Origin: Spirochaetales bacterium
GTDB lineage: Bacteria > Spirochaetota > Spirochaetia > Treponematales > Treponemataceae
Assembly (NCBI GenBank): GCA_003246335.1
Contig: QKAR01000004.1
Location: 1 to 38,424, forward strand
Direction: 5' to 3'
DNA length: 38,424 nucleotides
The translations under genes were made by a program, and so were the position numbers. This document shows, piece after piece, positions 22,485-31,751 of this stretch. The notes under the pieces are model-generated. The model worked only from the letters and a program-made list of their open reading frames with translations. It was not told where the DNA came from and searched no databases. The first letter of the stretch is position 1. The number at the start of each line of letters is the position of its first letter.

Positions 22485-22514
22485 TTGAAACCGAAGTTCC
22501 TCTTGTGGTAGTCT
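22485..22514 (+). promoter_or_regulatory. Weak promoter candidate of the purine operon
   Basis: TTGAAA (22485-22490), an 18-nt spacer and TAGTCT (22509-22514), only 6 nt before the purE ATG. The -10 match is poor. No purine riboswitch or PurR-like palindrome is visible in the 75-nt divergent gap. Confidence 0.3.
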
Positions 22515-22519
22515 CGGTT

Positions 22520-23002
22520 ATGAAAGTTACCATCCTTTTCGGTTCGAAATCAGATACAGAAATCATGCAGAAGGCGGCGTCAGTGCTGAAGGAATTCGGC
22601 GTCGATTACGCGTCGTACGTCATCTCGGCGCATCGGGCGGGCGAAGTGCTCGCGGAAACAGTCGCCGCCGAGGAAAAGGCGGGCACCGAGGTTTTCATCG
22701 CCGGCGCGGGACTCGCGGCGGCCCTCCCCGGGGTCGTCGCCTCCATGACGACGCTGCCGGTCATCGGCGTTCCCCTCGACGGGGGAAAAGTCGGCGGGAT
22801 AGACTCCCTTCTTTCCATCGTGCAAATGCCGAAGCAAATTCCCGTCGCGACCGTCGGACTCGACAACGCGGCGAACGCCGGCTATCTCGCGTGCGAAATC
22901 CTTTCAATTAAATATCCGGAACTCAAGGCGAAACTCGTGGCATTCCGTAAAAAATTGCAGGATGACGTGCGCGCGGAATTGAATCCGCGCGTGTTGGGAT
23001 AA
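22520..23002 (+). CDS. purE: N5-carboxyaminoimidazole ribonucleotide mutase PurE
   Basis: 160 residues from ATG at 22520 (a GTG at 22505 is in frame but would add only five residues). Acts on the carboxylated AIR step of IMP synthesis. The phosphate-binding [10 protein letters not shown], the catalytic His38 (SAHRAG), and the C-terminal [12 protein letters not shown] with [17 protein letters not shown] place it with class I (mutase) enzymes. Two positions differ from the usual class I sequence: SAHRTP is SAHRAG, and GGAAHLPG is GLAAALPG, so the second His is Ala68. The partner PurK (needed to make N5-CAIR) is not in the window. First gene of the pur operon; no ribosome site, possibly leaderless. 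Confidence 0.9.
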
Positions 23003-23024
23003 AGTTTTTTTGGGGGATAAAGGT

Positions 23025-23765
23025 ATGGGCATGAACAAGGAAGCGATTCTGAAGAACCTGGTCAAGGGAGAGCAAATGTACGAGGGCAAGGCGAAAAAAG
23101 TCTTCGCCACGAACTACCCTGACCTCGTCATCATCGACTATAAAGACGACGCCACCGCCTTCAACGGCGAGAAAAAGGGCCAGATCGACTCGAAAGGCGT
23201 GCTCAACAACGCGATCACGACCGGCCTTTTCGAGCTGCTCGAGAAAAAGGGCGTAAAAACCCATTACATCGCGAAACTTTCCGAGCGCGAAATGCTGTGC
23301 AAAAAAGTCAGCATCGTTCCGCTCGAAGTCATCACGCGCAACGTCGCCGCGGGAAGCTTTTCCAAGCGGCTCGGGGTCGCGGAAGGCTCCTCCCTCAAGA
23401 CCACGGTTTTCGAGATTTCCTACAAGGACGATTCGCTCGGCGATCCCCTCATCAACGACTATCACGCCGTGGCGATCGGCGCGGCAACCTGGAAGGAACT
23501 CAAGACCATCTACTCGGCGACTGATAAAATCAACAAGATCCTCACGGATTTTTTCTGGGACCGCGGAGTGAAACTCATCGACTTCAAGCTTGAGTTCGGC
23601 AAAGATGCGAGCGGGAAGATCATTCTCGCCGACGAGATCTCTCCCGACACCTGCCGATTCTGGGACGCGAAGACGAACGAAAAACTCGACAAGGATCGCT
23701 TCCGTCGCGATCTCGGCAACGTCAAAGAGGCGTATGTCGAGATTTTTAACCGCATCTCGAAATAA
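23025..23765 (+). CDS. purC: SAICAR synthetase PurC
   Basis: 246 residues. Joins CAIR and aspartate with ATP to give SAICAR. Recognised by [46 protein letters not shown] and the acidic site [12 protein letters not shown]. Two ATGs six nt apart (23025 and 23031) are both plausible; a GGGGG stretch 8 nt before the first and AAGGT 7 nt before the second make the choice open. It lies 22 nt after purE and 26 nt before purF. Length and motifs are normal for bacterial PurC. Confidence 0.95.
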
Positions 23766-23791
23766 CCCGCGAGAGCGGCAACGGGGAACAC

Positions 23792-25279
23792 ATGAACACA
23801 CTCACTGACGACGAGAAACTGAAGGATCACTGTGGCGTCATCGGCGTATACCTTTCCGATCACGAGCCGAACGCCTCGCGCCTCGCGTACTACGGGCTTC
23901 AGTCCCTCCAGCACCGCGGGCAGGAAAGCACGGGACTCGCCGTCGGCGACGGTGAGAGGATAGACCACTTCAAAGCGATGGGACTCGTCGCCGACGTGTA
24001 CAACAAGGAAAACCTTTCCGCGCTCACCGGGCACATAGCGATCGGGCACGTCCTGTACTCGACCTGCGGGAAGGCCTATATCGAGAACGCGCAGCCATTC
24101 GTTTCGCGCAGCAAGCTCGGGACCATCGCGGTCGCGCACAACGGAAGCCTCGTCAACACGGACCCGATGAAGGAATTCCTCGAGGAGACCGGTTCGACGT
24201 TCACGTCGACGAGCGACTCAGAGGTTATCATCAAGCTCATCGCGAAAAATTACAAAAAGGGGCTTGAGCGCGCGCTCACCGACACGATCCAGCTCATCAA
24301 GGGATCGTTCGCCCTGTGCGTCATGACCGAGAAGACGCTCATCGGCGCGCGGGACCCGAACGGCATCCGACCGCTGTGCCTCGGCAAGCTCCAAAACGGA
24401 TGGATACTCGCGAGCGAGTCCTGCGCGATCGACGCGATCGGCGGCGAGCTCGTGCGCGACATCGCTCCGGGAGAAATCGTCATCATCAACGACGACGGCG
24501 TTCTTTCGTTCAACTTCGGCGAAAAGACCTCCAAAAAAACCTGCGTGTTCGAGTACGTCTATTTCGCCCGTCCCGACTCGATCATCGACGGCATTCCCGT
24601 CATCGAGGCGAGGAAAAAAATGGGGGAGGTACTCGCGCGCGAGTCCGGCGTCGCGGCCGACGTCGTCGTGGGCGTCCCTGACTCGGGCCTCGCCGCGGCC
24701 ATTGGATACTCGAGAGCGTCGGGTATTCCGTACGCCATGGGCATCGTGAAAAACAAATATATCGGGCGAACCTTCATCGCGCCGAGCCAGGAAGAGCGCG
24801 AGGCAATGGTGTTCGTCAAGCTGAACGCGGTCAAAAGCGACATCGAGGGCAAGCGGGTCGTCATCATCGACGACTCGATCGTTCGCGGGACGACGAGCCG
24901 CAGGCTCATTCAAATTCTCCGGAAGGCGGGCGCGAAGGAAGTGCATTTCCGCATATCCTCCCCGCCGGTAAAGTATCCCTGTTATTTCGGCATCGATACA
25001 CCGGCGCGCGCGGACCTCATTTCCGCCAATAACGACAGCGAGGAAATACGCAAGGCCATCGGCGCGGACTCGCTCGCGTTCATCTCGATGGAAGGGATGA
25101 TCGAGGCGCTCCAGTCGTGCGAATACGAGGACGATCGGCAAAAGATAGACGGAAAGCGAGATCATGCGGCGCAGACCGTCGGCGCGTCGGCTTCCGGCGC
25201 CACGAACTGCGGCTATTGCCAAGGATGCTTCCTCGGCGAATACCCGATGCCGATGATCGGTGAATTAGGGAAACGCTGA
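23792..25279 (+). CDS. purF: Amidophosphoribosyltransferase PurF (Fe-S type)
   Basis: 495 residues. Commits PRPP and glutamine to 5-phosphoribosylamine. An N-terminal 13-residue leader precedes Cys14 (DHCGVIGVY), the glutaminase nucleophile exposed by cleavage. The glutaminase domain (14-250) is followed by a PRPP-binding domain with VVIIDDSIVRGTTSRR. Cysteines in KTCVFEYVYF, KYPCYFGID and CGYCQGCF match the four ligands of the structural 4Fe-4S cluster known in B. subtilis PurF, so it is the oxygen-sensitive type. Its last five residues (ELGKR) and the stop codon lie inside the first palindrome of a repeat array. Confidence 0.96.
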   Translation: MNTLTDDEKLKDHCGVIGVYLSDHEPNASRLAYYGLQSLQHRGQESTGLAVGDGERIDHFKAMGLVADVYNKENLSALTGHIAIGHVLYSTCGKAYIENAQPFVSRSKLGTIAVAHNGSLVNTDPMKEFLEETGSTFTSTSDSEVIIKLIAKNYKKGLERALTDTIQLIKGSFALCVMTEKTLIGARDPNGIRPLCLGKLQNGWILASESCAIDAIGGELVRDIAPGEIVIINDDGVLSFNFGEKTSKKTCVFEYVYFARPDSIIDGIPVIEARKKMGEVLARESGVAADVVVGVPDSGLAAAIGYSRASGIPYAMGIVKNKYIGRTFIAPSQEEREAMVFVKLNAVKSDIEGKRVVIIDDSIVRGTTSRRLIQILRKAGAKEVHFRISSPPVKYPCYFGIDTPARADLISANNDSEEIRKAIGADSLAFISMEGMIEALQSCEYEDDRQKIDGKRDHAAQTVGASASGATNCGYCQGCFLGEYPMPMIGELGKR

Positions 25280-25476: not shown

Positions 25477-26505
25477 ATGATCGATTACCGGCAATCAGGC
25501 GTTGACGTCGAGGAAGGCTACCGAGCCGTCGACAACTATAAAGAAAGCGCCAAGCGCACGATGATTCCCGGCGTTCTGAACGGGCTCGGGAGTTTCGCGG
25601 GACTTTTCGAGATGCCGAAAGGATATCGCGAGCCGGTCATCGTCTCGGGTACCGACGGCGTCGGCACGAAACTCGACGTCGCCTTTAAGATGAAAAAATA
25701 CGACACCGTCGGCATCGATTGCGTCGCCATGTGCGTTAACGACGTGCTCTGCCACGGGGCGAAGCCGCTCTTCTTCCTCGATTACCTCGCGTGCGGCAAG
25801 CTCGATGCTGCCGTCGCCGGCGACCTCGTGAAAGGCGTCGCCGAGGGCTGCCTCCAGGCCAACTCCGCGCTTATGGGCGGCGAGACGGCCGAGATGCCCG
25901 GCTTTTACGATGAGGGGAAATACGATATCGCCGGATTCTCGGTCGGCGTCGTGGAAAAATCCCAAATCATCGACGGTAAAGACATTCGCGAGGGCGACGC
26001 GCTCGTGGGGCTCGCGTCGAGCGGCGTCCACTCGAACGGCTTCAGCCTCGTGAGAAAACTCGTGCCGGACGTGTTCGAGGATTTCGAGGGGAAGCCGATC
26101 GGCGAAACCCTCCTCGCGCCGACAAAAATATACGTAAAGCCGATCCTCGCGCTCATGGAAAAAATATCGATACACGGCATGGTGCACGTTACCGGGGGCG
26201 GCTTTTACGAAAACGTCCCGCGCATGTACCCGACCGGCGGCGTCCATGGCGACTCGCGAGGCGACCGTCTCGTCTCGGTCTTCAAGAAAGGCTCTTGGCC
26301 CGTCCCGCCCATTTTCGCCGAACTTGTTCGCAGGGGCGCGAATCCCGACCGAATGTTCAACACTTTCAATATGGGCATCGGATTCGTATGCGCCGTGGCG
26401 CCCTCCGACGCCAAAACGGCCGTCGAGTTCCTGACCGCCGAGGGCTTTCCCGCCTTCGAAATCGGCCGCGTCGCGCGCGGCTCCGAAGATGTCGCCTTCG
26501 AGTAA
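25477..26505 (+). CDS. purM: Phosphoribosylformylglycinamidine cyclo-ligase (AIR synthetase) PurM
   Basis: 342 residues. Closes the imidazole ring: FGAM plus ATP gives AIR. Diagnostic stretches are SGTDGVGTKLDVAFKM, NDVLCHGAKPLFFLDYLAC, GGETAEMPGFY, GVHSNGFSLVRK and VTGGGFYENVPRM. Start ATG has a strong AAGGAG 7 nt upstream. It is separated from purF by 197 nt filled by the repeat array, so its expression may be set separately from the front of the operon. Its end overlaps the next gene by 17 nt. Confidence 0.97.
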   Translation: MIDYRQSGVDVEEGYRAVDNYKESAKRTMIPGVLNGLGSFAGLFEMPKGYREPVIVSGTDGVGTKLDVAFKMKKYDTVGIDCVAMCVNDVLCHGAKPLFFLDYLACGKLDAAVAGDLVKGVAEGCLQANSALMGGETAEMPGFYDEGKYDIAGFSVGVVEKSQIIDGKDIREGDALVGLASSGVHSNGFSLVRKLVPDVFEDFEGKPIGETLLAPTKIYVKPILALMEKISIHGMVHVTGGGFYENVPRMYPTGGVHGDSRGDRLVSVFKKGSWPVPPIFAELVRRGANPDRMFNTFNMGIGFVCAVAPSDAKTAVEFLTAEGFPAFEIGRVARGSEDVAFE

Positions 26506-27550
26506 GCGCGCGGAACCGTTCGCGAGGGAAGATCCGCGCGCGAGGAGAGAGGAATCGTCTCGGGCACGGCTCATCAGCGAACCGATAGTTCCCGCGGGAC
26601 AATCGTTTAGCGCGGCGGCCATGTCGTCCGGGGAACCCGGCGTTCCCCTTGCGTTTTCCTGGCGATCGAGGGAATATCGCGTCGTCCGCGTCGTGGATTC
26701 GTGGAAGAGCCTCCGCGATTGCCGGCACGGCTCCGGCGAAAAATACATCGATAAACATTTTTTCAAGGTCGATACCGAAAACGGAGAGACCATGACGCTC
26801 TATCGAGCGCGGTCCGGCAGCAAGGCCGATCAGTGGATTCTCTATACCATCGAGAGCGCGGCGAGTCGGACCGCGCGCCCGCTCAAACTAGCGGTTCTCG
26901 TTTCCGGAGGCGGGACGAACCTTCAGGCGCTCATCGACGCGGAAAAAAGTGACGACGCGAGCTGTCCCTCCGAGGCCCGCTACGAAATAGTGCTCGTCGT
27001 GGCCGACCGCGATTGCTTCGCGCTGGAGAGGGCTCGCCAAGCGGGGATCGCCACGGCCCGAGCCCGAGCCCCGGAAGGGACTCCAACGGGCGGCAACCGC
27101 CGGGCGATCTCTGACCGCGTCCTTGCCCTATCGCGGGAGGCGGGAGCCGAGGCGCTCGTGCTCGCGGGCTTTCTCACGATTATGGAAGGCGCCGTCATCG
27201 ACGAATACTCGGGCAAAATCATCAACCTGCACCCTGCTTTATTGCCCAAATTCGGCGGCAAGGGAATGTGGGGACACCACGTTCACGAGGCGGTACTCGC
27301 CTCAGGGGAGACGGAATCCGGATGTACCGTGCATCTCGTCGACGCGGGCTGCGATACCGGTCCCATCCTTTTGCAAAGGCGCGTGCCGGTTAAAACCGGC
27401 GATACGGCGGAATCTCTCGCCGCGCGAATTTCCGGCGAGGAGCACGAGGCGATCGTCGAGGGCGCGCGGGAACTCGCAAGACGGCTCGCCGCGCGACGCG
27501 ACGAGGACGGCGCGCTAACGGCCGAAAAAAGCGAAGAGGCGGAAAACTGA
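26489..27550 (+). CDS. purN: DUF6504-like domain fused to GAR transformylase PurN
   Basis: 353 residues, far longer than ordinary PurN (about 190-220). Residues about 29-122 resemble the DUF6504 family: LISEPIVPAGQSFSAAAMSS, then SWRSREYRVVRVVDSWK, CRHGSGEKYIDKHFFKVDT and the closing QWILYTIES. Residues about 133-353 are PurN, which transfers a formyl group from 10-formyl-THF to GAR: phosphate loop VSGGGTNLQAL, and catalytic Asn246, His248 and Asp289 (IINLHPALLP, GCDTGPI). No stop and no ATG/GTG/TTG with a ribosome site separates the two. The first ATG overlaps purM by 17 nt; the extra 28 residues before DUF6504 are low-complexity, and ATG 26621 is a possible shorter start. What DUF6504 does here is unknown. 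Confidence 0.85.
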   Translation: MSPSSKRAEPFAREDPRARREESSRARLISEPIVPAGQSFSAAAMSSGEPGVPLAFSWRSREYRVVRVVDSWKSLRDCRHGSGEKYIDKHFFKVDTENGETMTLYRARSGSKADQWILYTIESAASRTARPLKLAVLVSGGGTNLQALIDAEKSDDASCPSEARYEIVLVVADRDCFALERARQAGIATARARAPEGTPTGGNRRAISDRVLALSREAGAEALVLAGFLTIMEGAVIDEYSGKIINLHPALLPKFGGKGMWGHHVHEAVLASGETESGCTVHLVDAGCDTGPILLQRRVPVKTGDTAESLAARISGEEHEAIVEGARELARRLAARRDEDGALTAEKSEEAEN

Positions 27551-28392
27551 GCGAAAGCGGCGCGTTCCGAGCAAAGCCGAAACACCCGATTATCGAGTTC
27601 GCTCAAGGGGCCGTCGTCGGCGCGGGCGCGATACTTCCCGGACTTTCGGGGGCGGCGCTCGCCGTCGCGTTCGGCGCGTACGAGGATTTCACGCTGCTTC
27701 TCGCCCATCCAAAAAAAACGGCGAAATTTTTTTTGACACGGCGACTCGCTCTTTGCGTCGGGATCGCCGTCGGTTTCGTCGCGTTCGCTCTCGCTCTCGG
27801 TCGGTTCTTTCCCGCGCGGCACGATCCGCTCATTTTCCTTTTTATAGGGCTCATAGCGGGAACGCTACCATCCGCGTGGAAAGCCGCGAAAACGGATGGT
27901 ATGGGCCCGGCGGAAGCGATCGCGTTCGCGCTCGGCGTCGCTCTTATCGCCGCGGGCGCCTTCGCCGGCAAGGGACCGAGCGTCGCGCCCGGAGTCGCAG
28001 CGGCCGCGGGACATCCCGCGCTGGCGTCATTCTTCGCGGCCGGGGCCATCGTCGGCGCGGGCTCGCTCCTTCCGGGGTTCAGCGCGTCGTTCGTGCTCAT
28101 CTGGCTCGGCCTGTACGAGCCCCTCCTCGACGCATTGAGGGAACTCGACGTCGCGGCGGGACTCGCCGCGGCGATAGGCGCGCTCGCGGCGCTCGCGGCG
28201 CTGTCGCGCGCGGTTTCGGCGCTCTATCGACGCTTTCACGGCATCGTTTCTTTCTCCGTCTTAGGGTTTACCGTCGGTTCTCTCGCGATCGTGTTCCCCG
28301 GCTTTCCACAGGGGGCAAAAGCCGTCGGCTATTTCGCGCTGGCGACTGCCGGATTTCTCTCGTCTTTCGGTCTCGCTCGCGTCGGCGATTAG
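27547..28392 (+). CDS. DUF368 membrane protein (PopT-type polyprenyl-phosphate transporter)
   Basis: About 281 residues and about eight membrane helices. The family signature appears twice, as expected for an inverted-repeat transporter: GAVVGAGAILPGLSGAALAV (residues 24-43) and GAIVGAGSLLPGFSASFVLI (about 168-187). DUF368 proteins recycle undecaprenyl phosphate across the inner membrane. No ATG, GTG or TTG precedes the first signature in this frame; the best start is CTG at 27547, which overlaps the purN stop TGA and has GAAGAGG 9 nt upstream. TTG at 27733 would delete the first signature, so I reject it. Last gene of the pur operon by position, functionally unrelated to purines. Confidence 0.8.
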   Translation: MSESGAFRAKPKHPIIEFAQGAVVGAGAILPGLSGAALAVAFGAYEDFTLLLAHPKKTAKFFLTRRLALCVGIAVGFVAFALALGRFFPARHDPLIFLFIGLIAGTLPSAWKAAKTDGMGPAEAIAFALGVALIAAGAFAGKGPSVAPGVAAAAGHPALASFFAAGAIVGAGSLLPGFSASFVLIWLGLYEPLLDALRELDVAAGLAAAIGALAALAALSRAVSALYRRFHGIVSFSVLGFTVGSLAIVFPGFPQGAKAVGYFALATAGFLSSFGLARVGD

Positions 28393-28484: not shown

Positions 28485-29687
28485 ATGAAACATCGAACCG
28501 CGCATGAACGCGCTTTTAAAACCATCGCGCAATTCCAAAAAACGAGGGCGGGAAGCCTCGTCGTATCCGCGACGATGTTCACCGAGGCCCTTGCCCGATC
28601 GATCCCGCATTTCGCGGACGGCGACGGATGGTTCGTCGCGTCGTTTTCGGACGAGGACAGGCCCGCGATCGTAAGCCCGGAAGAGGCGGCTCCCTTTCTC
28701 GCCGAGGAAGGCATGAAAGCGCTGTCGGACGCCTTCGCGGCGGCTAAGCCACGCGTCGAGAACAGGAACGACGGGTCGCTCGTCAGGAAGAAATTCCGTT
28801 CATGGGCCTTCGTTCCCGCCATAGCGAAAAAGAAAACGCTCTGCGCCGCGATCATAGTGCGCGAACGGGGAAGCTTTTCGGTCGACGAGCAAAACGCGCT
28901 TCGGGACCTCTCGGCCTTCCTGACGCAGGAACTGCGCGACGCGCGGGCACGGAATAAAAAGGCGAACGGCCTTTCGGAGGAAACGAGGCATCGGCTCCTC
29001 CTTCGCACGCAATCATCCCTCGAGCGAAAGGAATCGTCGTTCCCCGGCTTCGCGCGGGCGATCGATTTCGGCGCGGGCACGGGAAGCGACATGGCTCAGC
29101 TGTACCGGCAGGGCGAGGACGTCGCGCTCGCGTGCGCGTGCGACGTGACGGCCGACGATCACGAGCGGCACGCGGGGCTTATTTACCTCGACACGTGGTT
29201 CGCCATCCTCGCGCAGACGTCGCTGTCGGTCCGCCCCATGCTCAGCAGGCTCAACATCGACATGCAAAAAAGATCGAACGAGTGCTACGCCTCCGTCGCG
29301 GTGGCGAAATACGACAGGCGAGCGCGCACGGTTGAGCTCGGGGGCATGGGCAGCGCCATCGCCTGCGTTTTCGACCACGCGCAAATGACCGCGCGCGTCC
29401 ACGAATTCGGGACGGCGTGCGGCATCCAAAGCGACGACGAGCCGTTCACGACGACGTTTGCCGTCAAACCCGGGGACATCGTGGCGCTCTGCACGGACGG
29501 CCTCGCGGCGAGCCGAAAAAGCGGCGGTGGCCTTATCGGGGCGGAGACGATCAGCGAACTGGTGAGGCGGAACTATTTTCTATCGGCCAACGACCTCGCG
29601 CAGAAAATCCTCACGGGCGTGGCCGAGGCCGCCGAGAAGGGCGTCAACGCGGACGACAGAACGGTGGAGGTGCTTAAAATTGAGTAA
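28485..29687 (+). CDS. Divergent SpoIIE/PP2C-type phosphatase with N-terminal GAF-like domain
   Basis: 400 residues, no membrane helix or signal, so cytoplasmic. Residues about 25-150 look like a GAF domain; about 185-400 are a PP2C domain with altered motifs. GGDYYD is GTGSDMAQ (Asp202 kept, second Asp lost); GDVSGKG is CDVTADDHERHAG (Asp220 kept, glycines lost); CTDGL and NADDRTVEV are close to normal. Four metal-binding acids are therefore still present and activity is possible, but the loop around the second motif is unusual. First gene of a second partner-switching operon. ATG 28485 has no normal ribosome site; a hairpin ends right before it. Confidence 0.75.
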   Translation: MKHRTAHERAFKTIAQFQKTRAGSLVVSATMFTEALARSIPHFADGDGWFVASFSDEDRPAIVSPEEAAPFLAEEGMKALSDAFAAAKPRVENRNDGSLVRKKFRSWAFVPAIAKKKTLCAAIIVRERGSFSVDEQNALRDLSAFLTQELRDARARNKKANGLSEETRHRLLLRTQSSLERKESSFPGFARAIDFGAGTGSDMAQLYRQGEDVALACACDVTADDHERHAGLIYLDTWFAILAQTSLSVRPMLSRLNIDMQKRSNECYASVAVAKYDRRARTVELGGMGSAIACVFDHAQMTARVHEFGTACGIQSDDEPFTTTFAVKPGDIVALCTDGLAASRKSGGGLIGAETISELVRRNYFLSANDLAQKILTGVAEAAEKGVNADDRTVEVLKIE

Positions 29688-29700
29688 GACGGGAGGGAAT

Positions 29701-30042
29701 ATGGAGGCGGTTTTTTCTGATCGCTTGGGGAAACGGGTATGCGCCGTCCAAGGAGACATCGATCTCTATAGCGCGCCCGAGTTGCATCGAACGTGGCTCG
29801 CGCACGTCGCGAAGCCGCAACCGGCGCCGTTCATCATCGACATGAGCGGGGCGGCCTATCTCGACTCGAGCGGCATCGGCGTGCTCGTGCATATCCTGGC
29901 CGACGCTAAAAAGAGGAATATCCCGTTCTGCCTTTGCGGGGTTCGGGGCATGGCGGAAAAGCTTTTGAAACTCGCGCGCATGGACTCCATCCTGCCGATC
30001 GAGAGGGACCTTGACGCGGCGATAACGAGAACGGGGAGATAG
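29701..30042 (+). CDS. STAS-domain anti-anti-sigma factor (second module)
   Basis: 113 residues from ATG 29701, with GGAGGG 4 nt upstream; a TTG at 29680 with GGAGGTG 7 nt upstream is an equally good start and would add seven residues and overlap the phosphatase gene. One STAS domain. The phosphosite motif is canonical: Asp55-Ser56-Ser57-Gly58 (AAYLDSSGIGVLVHIL), so Ser56 is the expected target. It should be phosphorylated by the ATPase encoded 6 nt downstream and restored by one of the two flanking phosphatases. Confidence 0.9.
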   Translation: MEAVFSDRLGKRVCAVQGDIDLYSAPELHRTWLAHVAKPQPAPFIIDMSGAAYLDSSGIGVLVHILADAKKRNIPFCLCGVRGMAEKLLKLARMDSILPIERDLDAAITRTGR

Positions 30043-30048
30043 GGAACG

Positions 30049-30591
30049 ATGAATTCGGAAATACTCGTGGACGATGGTCATGAATTATTCAACAAAGGCG
30101 GCTTAAATTACGCCGTGTTCGCGAGCGACTATTTGCAGATCAGGTACTACACGCTCCTGCTCATCCAACGGTCGCGGCCAAAACTCGACGAGCGCCTGTT
30201 GCTCGAGCAGCAGGTGAGCGAGATCATCAAGAACGCCGTCAAGCACGGGAACGACTGCGACCCCGCGAAGCAGGTGAAGGTGTGGTATAAGTTCACCACC
30301 GCCGAGGCGCGGCTCATCGTCGAGGACGAGGGACCCGGCTTCGCCGACATCGAGAAGTGGAATATCTTCAACCGCAAGCGCCAAGAGTACATCGAGAAGG
30401 AAGACTTCGTCGGCCTCATGAACTACGTGTCGTGGCGCACGAAAAAAAGCGACAACTACGACGGCGGGAACGCGATGTTCGCCGCGCTCGAGTACTGGAA
30501 CCTCGGGGTGGTGTACTCGGGAAAGCGCAATACGGTCGCCGTCGGGAAGCGTTTCAAGGACGACCCGATGGAAATGGACGGCGATGAATGA
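30049..30591 (+). CDS. RsbW-like ATPase/kinase with altered lid (second module)
   Basis: 180 residues, longer than the usual 130-150. The N box (EIIKNAVKHGN, about 60-70) and the DxGxG box (VEDEGPGF) are intact. In place of the short glycine-rich lid there is an insertion of about 35 residues (WNIFNRKRQEYIEKEDFVGL, then NYVSWRTKKS) ending DGGNAMFAALEYWNLG. An enlarged or altered lid may change nucleotide handling or partner choice. Expected roles: phosphorylate the STAS protein and bind a target in the unphosphorylated state. The stop overlaps the next ATG (ATGA). Ribosome site is weak (GGGGAGATAGGG region). Confidence 0.83.
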   Translation: MNSEILVDDGHELFNKGGLNYAVFASDYLQIRYYTLLLIQRSRPKLDERLLLEQQVSEIIKNAVKHGNDCDPAKQVKVWYKFTTAEARLIVEDEGPGFADIEKWNIFNRKRQEYIEKEDFVGLMNYVSWRTKKSDNYDGGNAMFAALEYWNLGVVYSGKRNTVAVGKRFKDDPMEMDGDE

Positions 30592-31751
30592 TACTGCGAG
30601 AGACCGAACGAAAGGACGTTAAGGGCGAGCGCATCATTAAGATCGCGAGCTCGTTCTATTACGTTTCCGCGGACGCGCCGGTGCATCAGCTGCTCGCCGA
30701 GCTGAAGGAACCCTACGGCTACGCGGTCGCCGTCGTCGACGAGAGCCTTCGCGTGAAGGGCATCGTCATTCCCGAGGAGCTCGTCGAAATGCTCGGCAAG
30801 CCCTTCGGCCGGGACTTGCTCCAACGGCAGTCGGTATCCGACATCATGCGGCCCGCGAGAATTTTTCCGTACGACGAGTACACGCAGGCGATCCGCGAGC
30901 GGATCAGGGCGGACCTGAACCGCGACGAAAGCTCGCACTACCTGCTCGTCGACGAAAGCGGGGAGTTCCGGGGGCACTTCTCCTCCCGCGACGTGCTCAT
31001 CCACGCGATGAGCGACCATGAGCGGGAACTCGCGACCGCGACGACGATACAAAGCCGGCTCGTGAAACCGTACGTCGCCGTTCGAAACGAGCGCATCTCG
31101 ATAACGTGCTCGTCGGTGATGGCCCAGGGCGTGGGCGGAGACTATTACTTCGTGAGGGAATACCAGCCGGGCAAGTGGTTTTTTTGCCTCTGCGACATTT
31201 CGGGAAAGGGAATCGCCGCCGCTATCATCACGGCCGTGCTTTCCGGCTTTTTCTACAACGCCGATTTCGACGAGGACGTGGACGTCCTCGTCCGGCGCCT
31301 CAATCGCATCATCCTCGACACCTTCCAGCTCGAGAAGTATCTCACCGGCTTTTTCGCGAAGTTCTCGGAAAAAACCGGCTTGTTCGAGTATTGCGATATG
31401 GGTCACTCATGGTTTTTCGTCGTCGAGGCGAATACCGCCCAGCAAATCTCGCCCGAGGCCGATAACGTTCCCATCGGCCTCGTGGACGATCCGCCCGTAA
31501 ACACGCGATACCTTCGCTTCGAGCCGGGCATGGCCATCATGCTCATCAGCGACGGAATCGTCGAGCAGGAAAACCGCGCGAAGGAACCCTTCCCCGTCGC
31601 CGAGGCCGGACGGATAATCTCAGAATCCCTTCAGCGGGGAGAGGACCTCGTCCGCGCGAAAATCAGGATTCTCGAGTCATTCTTCTCGTTCAAGCAGGAC
31701 ATGCCCCAGCACGACGACATCAGTTTTCTCATCTTCCACTATTTCGCTTGA
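30588..31751 (+). CDS. CBS-pair SpoIIE/PP2C-type phosphatase
   Basis: 387 residues, cytoplasmic. Residues about 15-75 and 83-140 are two CBS domains (VVDESLRVKGIVIPEELVEM; LVDESGEFRGHFSSRDVLIH), which bind adenosine nucleotides or S-adenosyl compounds. A short coiled linker leads to a PP2C domain (about 170-387) with VGGDYYFVREY (second Asp replaced by Phe), CDISGKG, LISDGIVEQ and QHDDISFLIF. A CBS-controlled phosphatase would let the switch read cell energy state. Translation is coupled to the ATPase gene by an ATGA overlap. Last gene of the module; no terminator of ordinary form follows before the corA leader. Confidence 0.87.
   Translation: MILRETERKDVKGERIIKIASSFYYVSADAPVHQLLAELKEPYGYAVAVVDESLRVKGIVIPEELVEMLGKPFGRDLLQRQSVSDIMRPARIFPYDEYTQAIRERIRADLNRDESSHYLLVDESGEFRGHFSSRDVLIHAMSDHERELATATTIQSRLVKPYVAVRNERISITCSSVMAQGVGGDYYFVREYQPGKWFFCLCDISGKGIAAAIITAVLSGFFYNADFDEDVDVLVRRLNRIILDTFQLEKYLTGFFAKFSEKTGLFEYCDMGHSWFFVVEANTAQQISPEADNVPIGLVDDPPVNTRYLRFEPGMAIMLISDGIVEQENRAKEPFPVAEAGRIISESLQRGEDLVRAKIRILESFFSFKQDMPQHDDISFLIFHYFA

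Follow-up and report, generated by a model that had tools for sequence, protein, structure and literature searches.

A DUF6504 domain, probably of the ImuB-C superfamily, precedes PurN in a single reading frame of a spirochaete purine operon

What would a DUF6504 domain do at the N-terminus of PurN, the GAR transformylase? The question arises from one gene in the window, by which we mean the whole 38,424-nucleotide stretch analysed here (contig QKAR01000004.1 of a Spirochaetales bacterium). An initial annotation had described this gene as such a fusion. The relevant features are:

22,505–25,279, forward strand: purE, purC and purF, upstream of purM (Pfam AIRC, SAICAR_synt, GATase and Pribosyltran)
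25,477–26,505, forward strand: purM (AIR synthase), directly upstream of the fused gene (Pfam AIRS and AIRS_C)
26,489–27,550, forward strand: fused gene of 353 residues, comprising a short tail, DUF6504 (very probably ImuB-C superfamily), a linker and PurN
26,489–26,563, forward strand: N-terminal tail, residues 1–25, predicted to be disordered (pLDDT <50 for residues 1–23)
26,564–26,860, forward strand: DUF6504 domain, residues 26–124 as in alignment A1 (Pfam PF20114)
26,861–26,878, forward strand: short linker, residues 125–130, free of in-frame ATG, GTG or TTG
26,879–27,550, forward strand: PurN domain, residues 131–353 (TIGR00639, alignment to 2gar, Foldseek)

The fused gene is a single open frame of 353 residues on the forward strand, running from the ATG at 26,489 to the TGA that ends at 27,550, exactly as initially annotated. 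Pfam DUF6504 (PF20114) scored 84.4 bits over residues 27–122 (cut-off 24.2, E=7.3e-24), and the match spans positions 4–102 of the 103 in the profile, which places the domain in this Pfam family. Formyl_trans_N matched residues 133–324 with 142.8 bits against a cut-off of 26.1 (E=1.3e-41). Both family calls of the initial annotation were therefore borne out by models above their cut-offs. Its domain span of 29–122 was right at the end and late at the start, since the match begins at residue 27, or at 26 if the part is scanned alone. AlphaFold2 modelled the full-length protein with a pLDDT of 85.6 and the first 23 residues disordered. We are close to certain that the DUF6504–PurN fusion is real. 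The sole further DUF6504 match in the window's genome lies below the cut-off (E=0.006) and contains three stop codons.

Judged by its sequence, the larger part of the protein is a PurN-equivalog formyltransferase that has kept its catalytic residues. The PurN equivalog model TIGR00639 (NCBIfam) matched residues 133–331 with 157.2 bits, a slim margin over the cut-off of 150.1, and the full-length model retrieved PurN structures as its top matches in Foldseek. N246, H248 and D289 align with N106, H108 and D144 of E. coli PurN (chain 2gar), which we take to be the catalytic residues of that enzyme; their presence had been claimed from the start. The part thus shares the equivalog score, the fold and the catalytic residues of known PurN/GAR transformylases (TIGR00639; 3auf, 2gar, 1meo), whereas the N-terminal domain of approximately 100 residues and the disordered tail are additions. 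A second PurN in the window's genome was considered and rejected, as the other two matches exceed the NCBIfam cut-offs of PurU and Fmt, and by these models the fused PurN is the only one in that genome. Likewise, ten of the 11 genomes found below to carry DUF6504 have one match above the PurN cut-off, the eleventh (G036) having a broken gene. Compared with E. coli PurN, an extra loop of about five residues (the GMWGHHVHEAV region) follows the catalytic His. This loop is present in all 21 PurN rows of alignment A2, unfused relatives included, and in two Bacteroidota (L091 and L092).

According to Pfam and NCBIfam matches, the fused gene closes a purE–purC–purF–purM–purN series, and its ATG lies inside purM, so that 17 bases of the purM end are overlapped. 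The next gene (27,547–28,389, forward strand) matches PF04018 and resembles undecaprenyl phosphate translocases. It is listed with a TTG start at 27,733, but upstream of this TTG the frame stays open and looks coding as far as a CTG at 27,547, which overlaps the purN stop (CTGA) and is probably the real start. Beyond the purine operon (28,485–31,751, forward strand), a SpoIIE-type phosphatase gene comes first, followed by frames resembling, by eye, an anti-sigma antagonist, an anti-sigma kinase and another such phosphatase. No RNA families were found in the window.

In the taxonomic family, a search of 274 genomes (E 0.001) recovered DUF6504 in 11, belonging to four of 20 genera, and gave no match in 263. 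Among genomes at least 90% complete, eight of 128 had the domain and 120 gave no match. The count of 11 species was made after merging duplicates of one species held under two locus names. In all 11, DUF6504 is flanked by purM and purN. It shares the frame of purN in seven (G000, G002, G003, G005, G011, G014 and G036). In the other four (G015, G034, G044 and G045) it forms a gene of its own in a different frame, and its overlap with purN is 8 bases for three of these species and ∼34 for one. The architecture of the window therefore recurs in six further genomes of the family. In five of these the purN part is unbroken (G002, G003, G005, G011 and G014), and three of the five are also public records (L013, L014 and L015). 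The four relatives in which a separate DUF6504 gene overlaps purN strengthen the linkage between the two. In G036 (L010/L090) the DUF6504–purN gene shifts frame within purN, for which either an error in the contig or decay of the gene could account.

Within the window's own genus, five of 12 genomes have the fusion and another five (G001, G004, G006, G008 and G010) have purM followed by purN with no room for the domain; in the remaining two, purN lies at a contig end (G009) or no match was obtained (G007). This patchy occurrence, together with the five same-genus relatives that have a bare purM–purN arrangement, indicates that PurN can do without the domain.

A candidate start codon for DUF6504 falls within the end of purM in ten of the 11 species, eight of them having an identical TTG at −7, which suggests that purM, DUF6504 and purN are translationally coupled. 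An internal start that would yield a separate PurN is unsupported for the window and for G003, where no ATG, GTG or TTG occurs in the interval that opens a few codons short of the end of the domain and closes 12 codons into the PurN core. Because the usual start codons are absent near the junction, the fusion looks obligate in these two. Such a start is possible in G002, G005, G011, G014 and G036, where an ATG lies at the junction or close to it, preceded in G014 and G036 by a purine-rich stretch; some of these relatives may also make free PurN.

Both parts of the gene appear constrained. Across ten pairs, dN/dS (NG86) ranged from 0.07 to 0.36 for the DUF6504 part and from 0.09 to 0.32 for PurN, with dS above 1 in all seven fused-gene pairs, which makes their ratios rough. 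In alignment A1, which covers eight species (without G003, G014 and G045), 35 of the 99 positions of the window's domain are invariant, and some of these residues differ in G014 and G045.

Profile comparison makes it very probable that DUF6504 belongs to the ImuB-C superfamily. Aligning the eight PurN-linked domains (A1) with six Bacteroidota domains (A3) by hhalign gave a probability of 95.7% (E=1e-8) in a single comparison. In this alignment the WRG motif is paired, as is the closing Trp; A3 consists solely of solo domains from operons. Aravind et al. (2013, PMC3765255) describe ImuB-C as ∼80 residues, mostly β-strands, a C-terminal Trp and two or more basic residues being conserved, and place it in contexts with Y-family polymerases, DnaE2, LexA, SRAP, Ku/ligase, SplB and a metallopeptidase. 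Together with a later paper, they assign to it the C-terminus of ImuB as well as solo proteins in error-prone polymerase operons (PMC3765255, PMC6511836). The window's domain has the corresponding features. Its AlphaFold2 model contains six strands of at least four residues and one short helix (pLDDT 82, pTM 0.71), and W91 and several R/K residues are invariant in eight species. The superfamily's habit of adjoining or joining DNA-repair or translesion polymerase genes was not seen in this family, where all 11 copies adjoin purM and purN; a Y-family polymerase match is present in ten of the 11 genomes.

That habit is seen in the phylum of Kaistella (Bacteroidota), where PF20114 was found in nine of 247 sampled genomes, seven of them above the cut-off, and where by eye a DnaE-like frame follows it at seven of the nine loci. 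At the loci scanned, the neighbours include a DnaE-type polymerase (PHP, DNA_pol3_alpha) at L112, Y-family proteins at L116 (IMS above the cut-off) and L112 (a thumb-domain match alone, below it) and a LexA-type Peptidase_S24 at L118; one neighbour, at L115, gave no family match. In the 14 genomes searched as controls, Caulobacter alone exceeded the PF20114 cut-off. The initial annotation was right that DUF6504 is otherwise met alone or beside DNA-polymerase-type proteins, and the family would be the published ImuB-C superfamily.

The likeness to ImuB-C thus comprises the profile match, the small β-rich form, the closing Trp, the basic residues and the existence of solo and fused forms. In contrast to ImuB-C of mutasome operons, the copies described here lie in a purine operon, where the window's forms the N-terminal part of a metabolic enzyme, and are basic instead of acidic. 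The PurN-linked domain has a pI of 8.2–10.0 in 11 of 11 species, where PurN itself is acidic (pI 5.1–6.2; G036 partial), and the six Bacteroidota mutasome-operon copies have a pI of 4.6–5.8.

Outside the taxonomic family the domain was detected in five of 394 genomes sampled from the class and, in a sample of 392 genomes from the phylum, in G419, G149 and G100 (the last below the cut-off); no purN match lay near it in the 1.7–9 kb examined per genome. Solo DUF6504 genes of other spirochaete families (L134–L137 in G937, G913, G977 and G990, and L093 in G419) have no common neighbourhood by eye and no purN match within 1.7–6.3 kb each. These stand-alone copies nonetheless share with the PurN-linked ones the motif G[SA]x[ED]xYxx[KR]H, which occurs in eight of eight PurN-linked rows and in all five solo spirochaete copies, and is absent from the six Bacteroidota copies, as it is from L094, L095 and L110, which are more distant. 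The existence of solo genes with no purN match nearby suggests that the underlying activity of the domain is independent of PurN.

Plasmids searched with the window's domain gave no match at E 0.01. A distant spirochaete DUF6504 gave four weak plasmid matches, one of them an annotated DUF6504 in Thermaerobacter with toxin–antitoxin and transposase genes near it. A Sinorhizobium plasmid match (L111), unannotated and with no clear ImuB frame, was set aside. Viral contigs contained no confirmed DUF6504. Sixty phage records match the fusion protein, none across more than 80% of it, and among the matches listed (5 of 60) all begin at residue 113 or later.

Quick trees were built for PurM (69 rows) and PurN (88 rows). 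Presence of the domain is dispersed over their deep branches, requiring at least six changes on the PurM tree and at least five on the PurN tree, and repeated loss and repeated gain both fit this pattern. The trees, also used in an attempt to root the fused against the separate forms, are weakly supported. Genus g4 contains an in-frame form (G014) and a separate one (G044). The purM, DUF6504 and purN genes of G044 (g4; L004/L024) differ little from those of G015 (g5; L005/L018) and adjoin them in the trees, although the two genomes are assigned to separate genera; this could reflect transfer or an error in binning.

Neighbourhood, coupling and fusion together argue that the domain and PurN work together, and DUF6504 probably acts on or through PurN, whatever the mechanism. 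As to that mechanism, we draw in part on a 2019 paper whose authors we take to be Timinskas and Venclovas. It names ImuB-C the least characterised mutasome module and proposes it as a candidate DnaE2-binding part (PMC6511836). In another study, ImuB-C is reported to appear to stabilise ImuA'–ImuB, a complex that still forms without it (PMC11791113). On the side of purine synthesis, a third study describes E. coli PurN as a peripheral member of an interaction cluster with PurD, PurM, PurK and PurT (PMC12583656). These roles of ImuB-C elsewhere, themselves matters of inference, and the E. coli cluster lead us to favour docking in purine synthesis. DUF6504 would be a small module for docking proteins, the part that ImuB-C is believed to play in mutasomes, and would hold PurN on a purine-pathway enzyme, for example PurM or PurD, or on itself. 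The overlap of purM, DUF6504 and purN would help to set the stoichiometry, and fusion would make permanent a contact that two-gene species form between two chains. Taken whole, the proposal of a docking module that holds PurN on a partner, most likely a purine enzyme, or on itself has in our judgement nearly an even chance of being correct. Its narrower form, a small basic β-rich module docking PurN in a purine enzyme complex, is drawn by analogy and is more tentative. We nevertheless rank docking first, followed in order by nucleic-acid binding, ligand binding and hitch-hiking.

Nucleic-acid binding would bring PurN to DNA or RNA, for example to a pur transcript or promoter as an autoregulator. 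It would suit a domain that is basic in all 11 species while PurN is acidic, and ImuB-C was proposed to be a DNA-binding, possibly SH3-like, domain (PMC3765255). However, that role of ImuB-C is itself a proposal, the six mutasome-operon domains are acidic, and comparison of the DUF6504 model with known folds found no structural relative in the PDB (best E 0.06, TM 0.29) or among viral structures (nothing better than E 0.13); a profile search of PDB sequences with DUF6504 reached E 0.1 at best. We consider this reading unlikely.

The domain might instead bind a small anionic ligand and so tune or feed the PurN active site; the initial annotation had already suggested a nucleotide or folate-linked ligand. 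Candidates are a nucleotide, GAR and the 10-formyl-tetrahydrofolate polyglutamate tail. A basic domain that a short linker attaches to an enzyme acting on anionic substrates would be well placed for this, and R, K, H and C residues are invariant in the eight of 11 species in A1. Yet some of those residues vary in G014 and G045, the PDB comparison matched no ligand-binding fold, and the occurrence of the G[SA]x[ED]xYxx[KR]H motif in five solo genes with no purN nearby argues that it is not specific to PurN substrates. This possibility seems to us rather doubtful.

It is improbable that DUF6504 simply does a job of its own, being co-expressed in the pur operon and joined by loss of a stop codon to a purN that is a mere carrier. 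Solo genes away from purN and the many relatives lacking the domain would be in keeping with such independence, and the junction ATG behind a purine-rich stretch in G014 and G036 is what stop-codon loss would leave. Against this, all 11 copies that the family search returned at E 0.001 adjoin purN, and in the window and G003, with no ATG, GTG or TTG near the junction, two products from a usual start are not expected.

A wider role, in which ImuB-C is a shared docking module that physically connects the polymerases of DNA repair with de novo purine synthesis, strikes us as a long shot; the same holds for its corollary that in these spirochaetes a translesion polymerase or the replisome recruits or regulates PurN and, with it, the purine supply nearby. 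Finally, an artefact (a frameshift, a chimeric assembly or a frame open by chance), of which the frame break inside purN of G036 is a reminder, has a negligible chance of explaining the fusion and is excluded as far as sequence allows. Five other species with purN unbroken show the same order (three also as public records), two strong domain matches fall in one frame, and dN/dS is well below 1 in both parts.

The initial annotation knew of no described case of this fusion, and we found none in the open-access literature. No paper was found there on DUF6504/PF20114, nor on ImuB-C together with phosphoribosylglycinamide formyltransferase or purine, and no paper on PurN fusions was fitting by title. 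Both parts belong to known families; the fused architecture and its separate-gene counterpart appear to be undescribed. A further comparison is eukaryotic trifunctional GART, which is reported to carry PurD, PurM and PurN activities on one chain. As in the window, PurN is joined to another part and stands next to PurM, there in one chain. The GART domain order places PurN next to PurM. The partners of PurN in GART are pathway enzymes, whereas here the partner is a DUF6504 domain and PurM is separate.

In the literature that we found, ImuB-C is discussed in a DNA-repair setting only, and a copy joined to PurN widens that range: placement of the domain is not confined to DNA-damage operons. A conserved and selected ImuB-C copy on a well-understood enzyme also makes the binding target of the domain accessible to assay. 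The PurN fusion may further reveal how a bacterial purine pathway is scaffolded.
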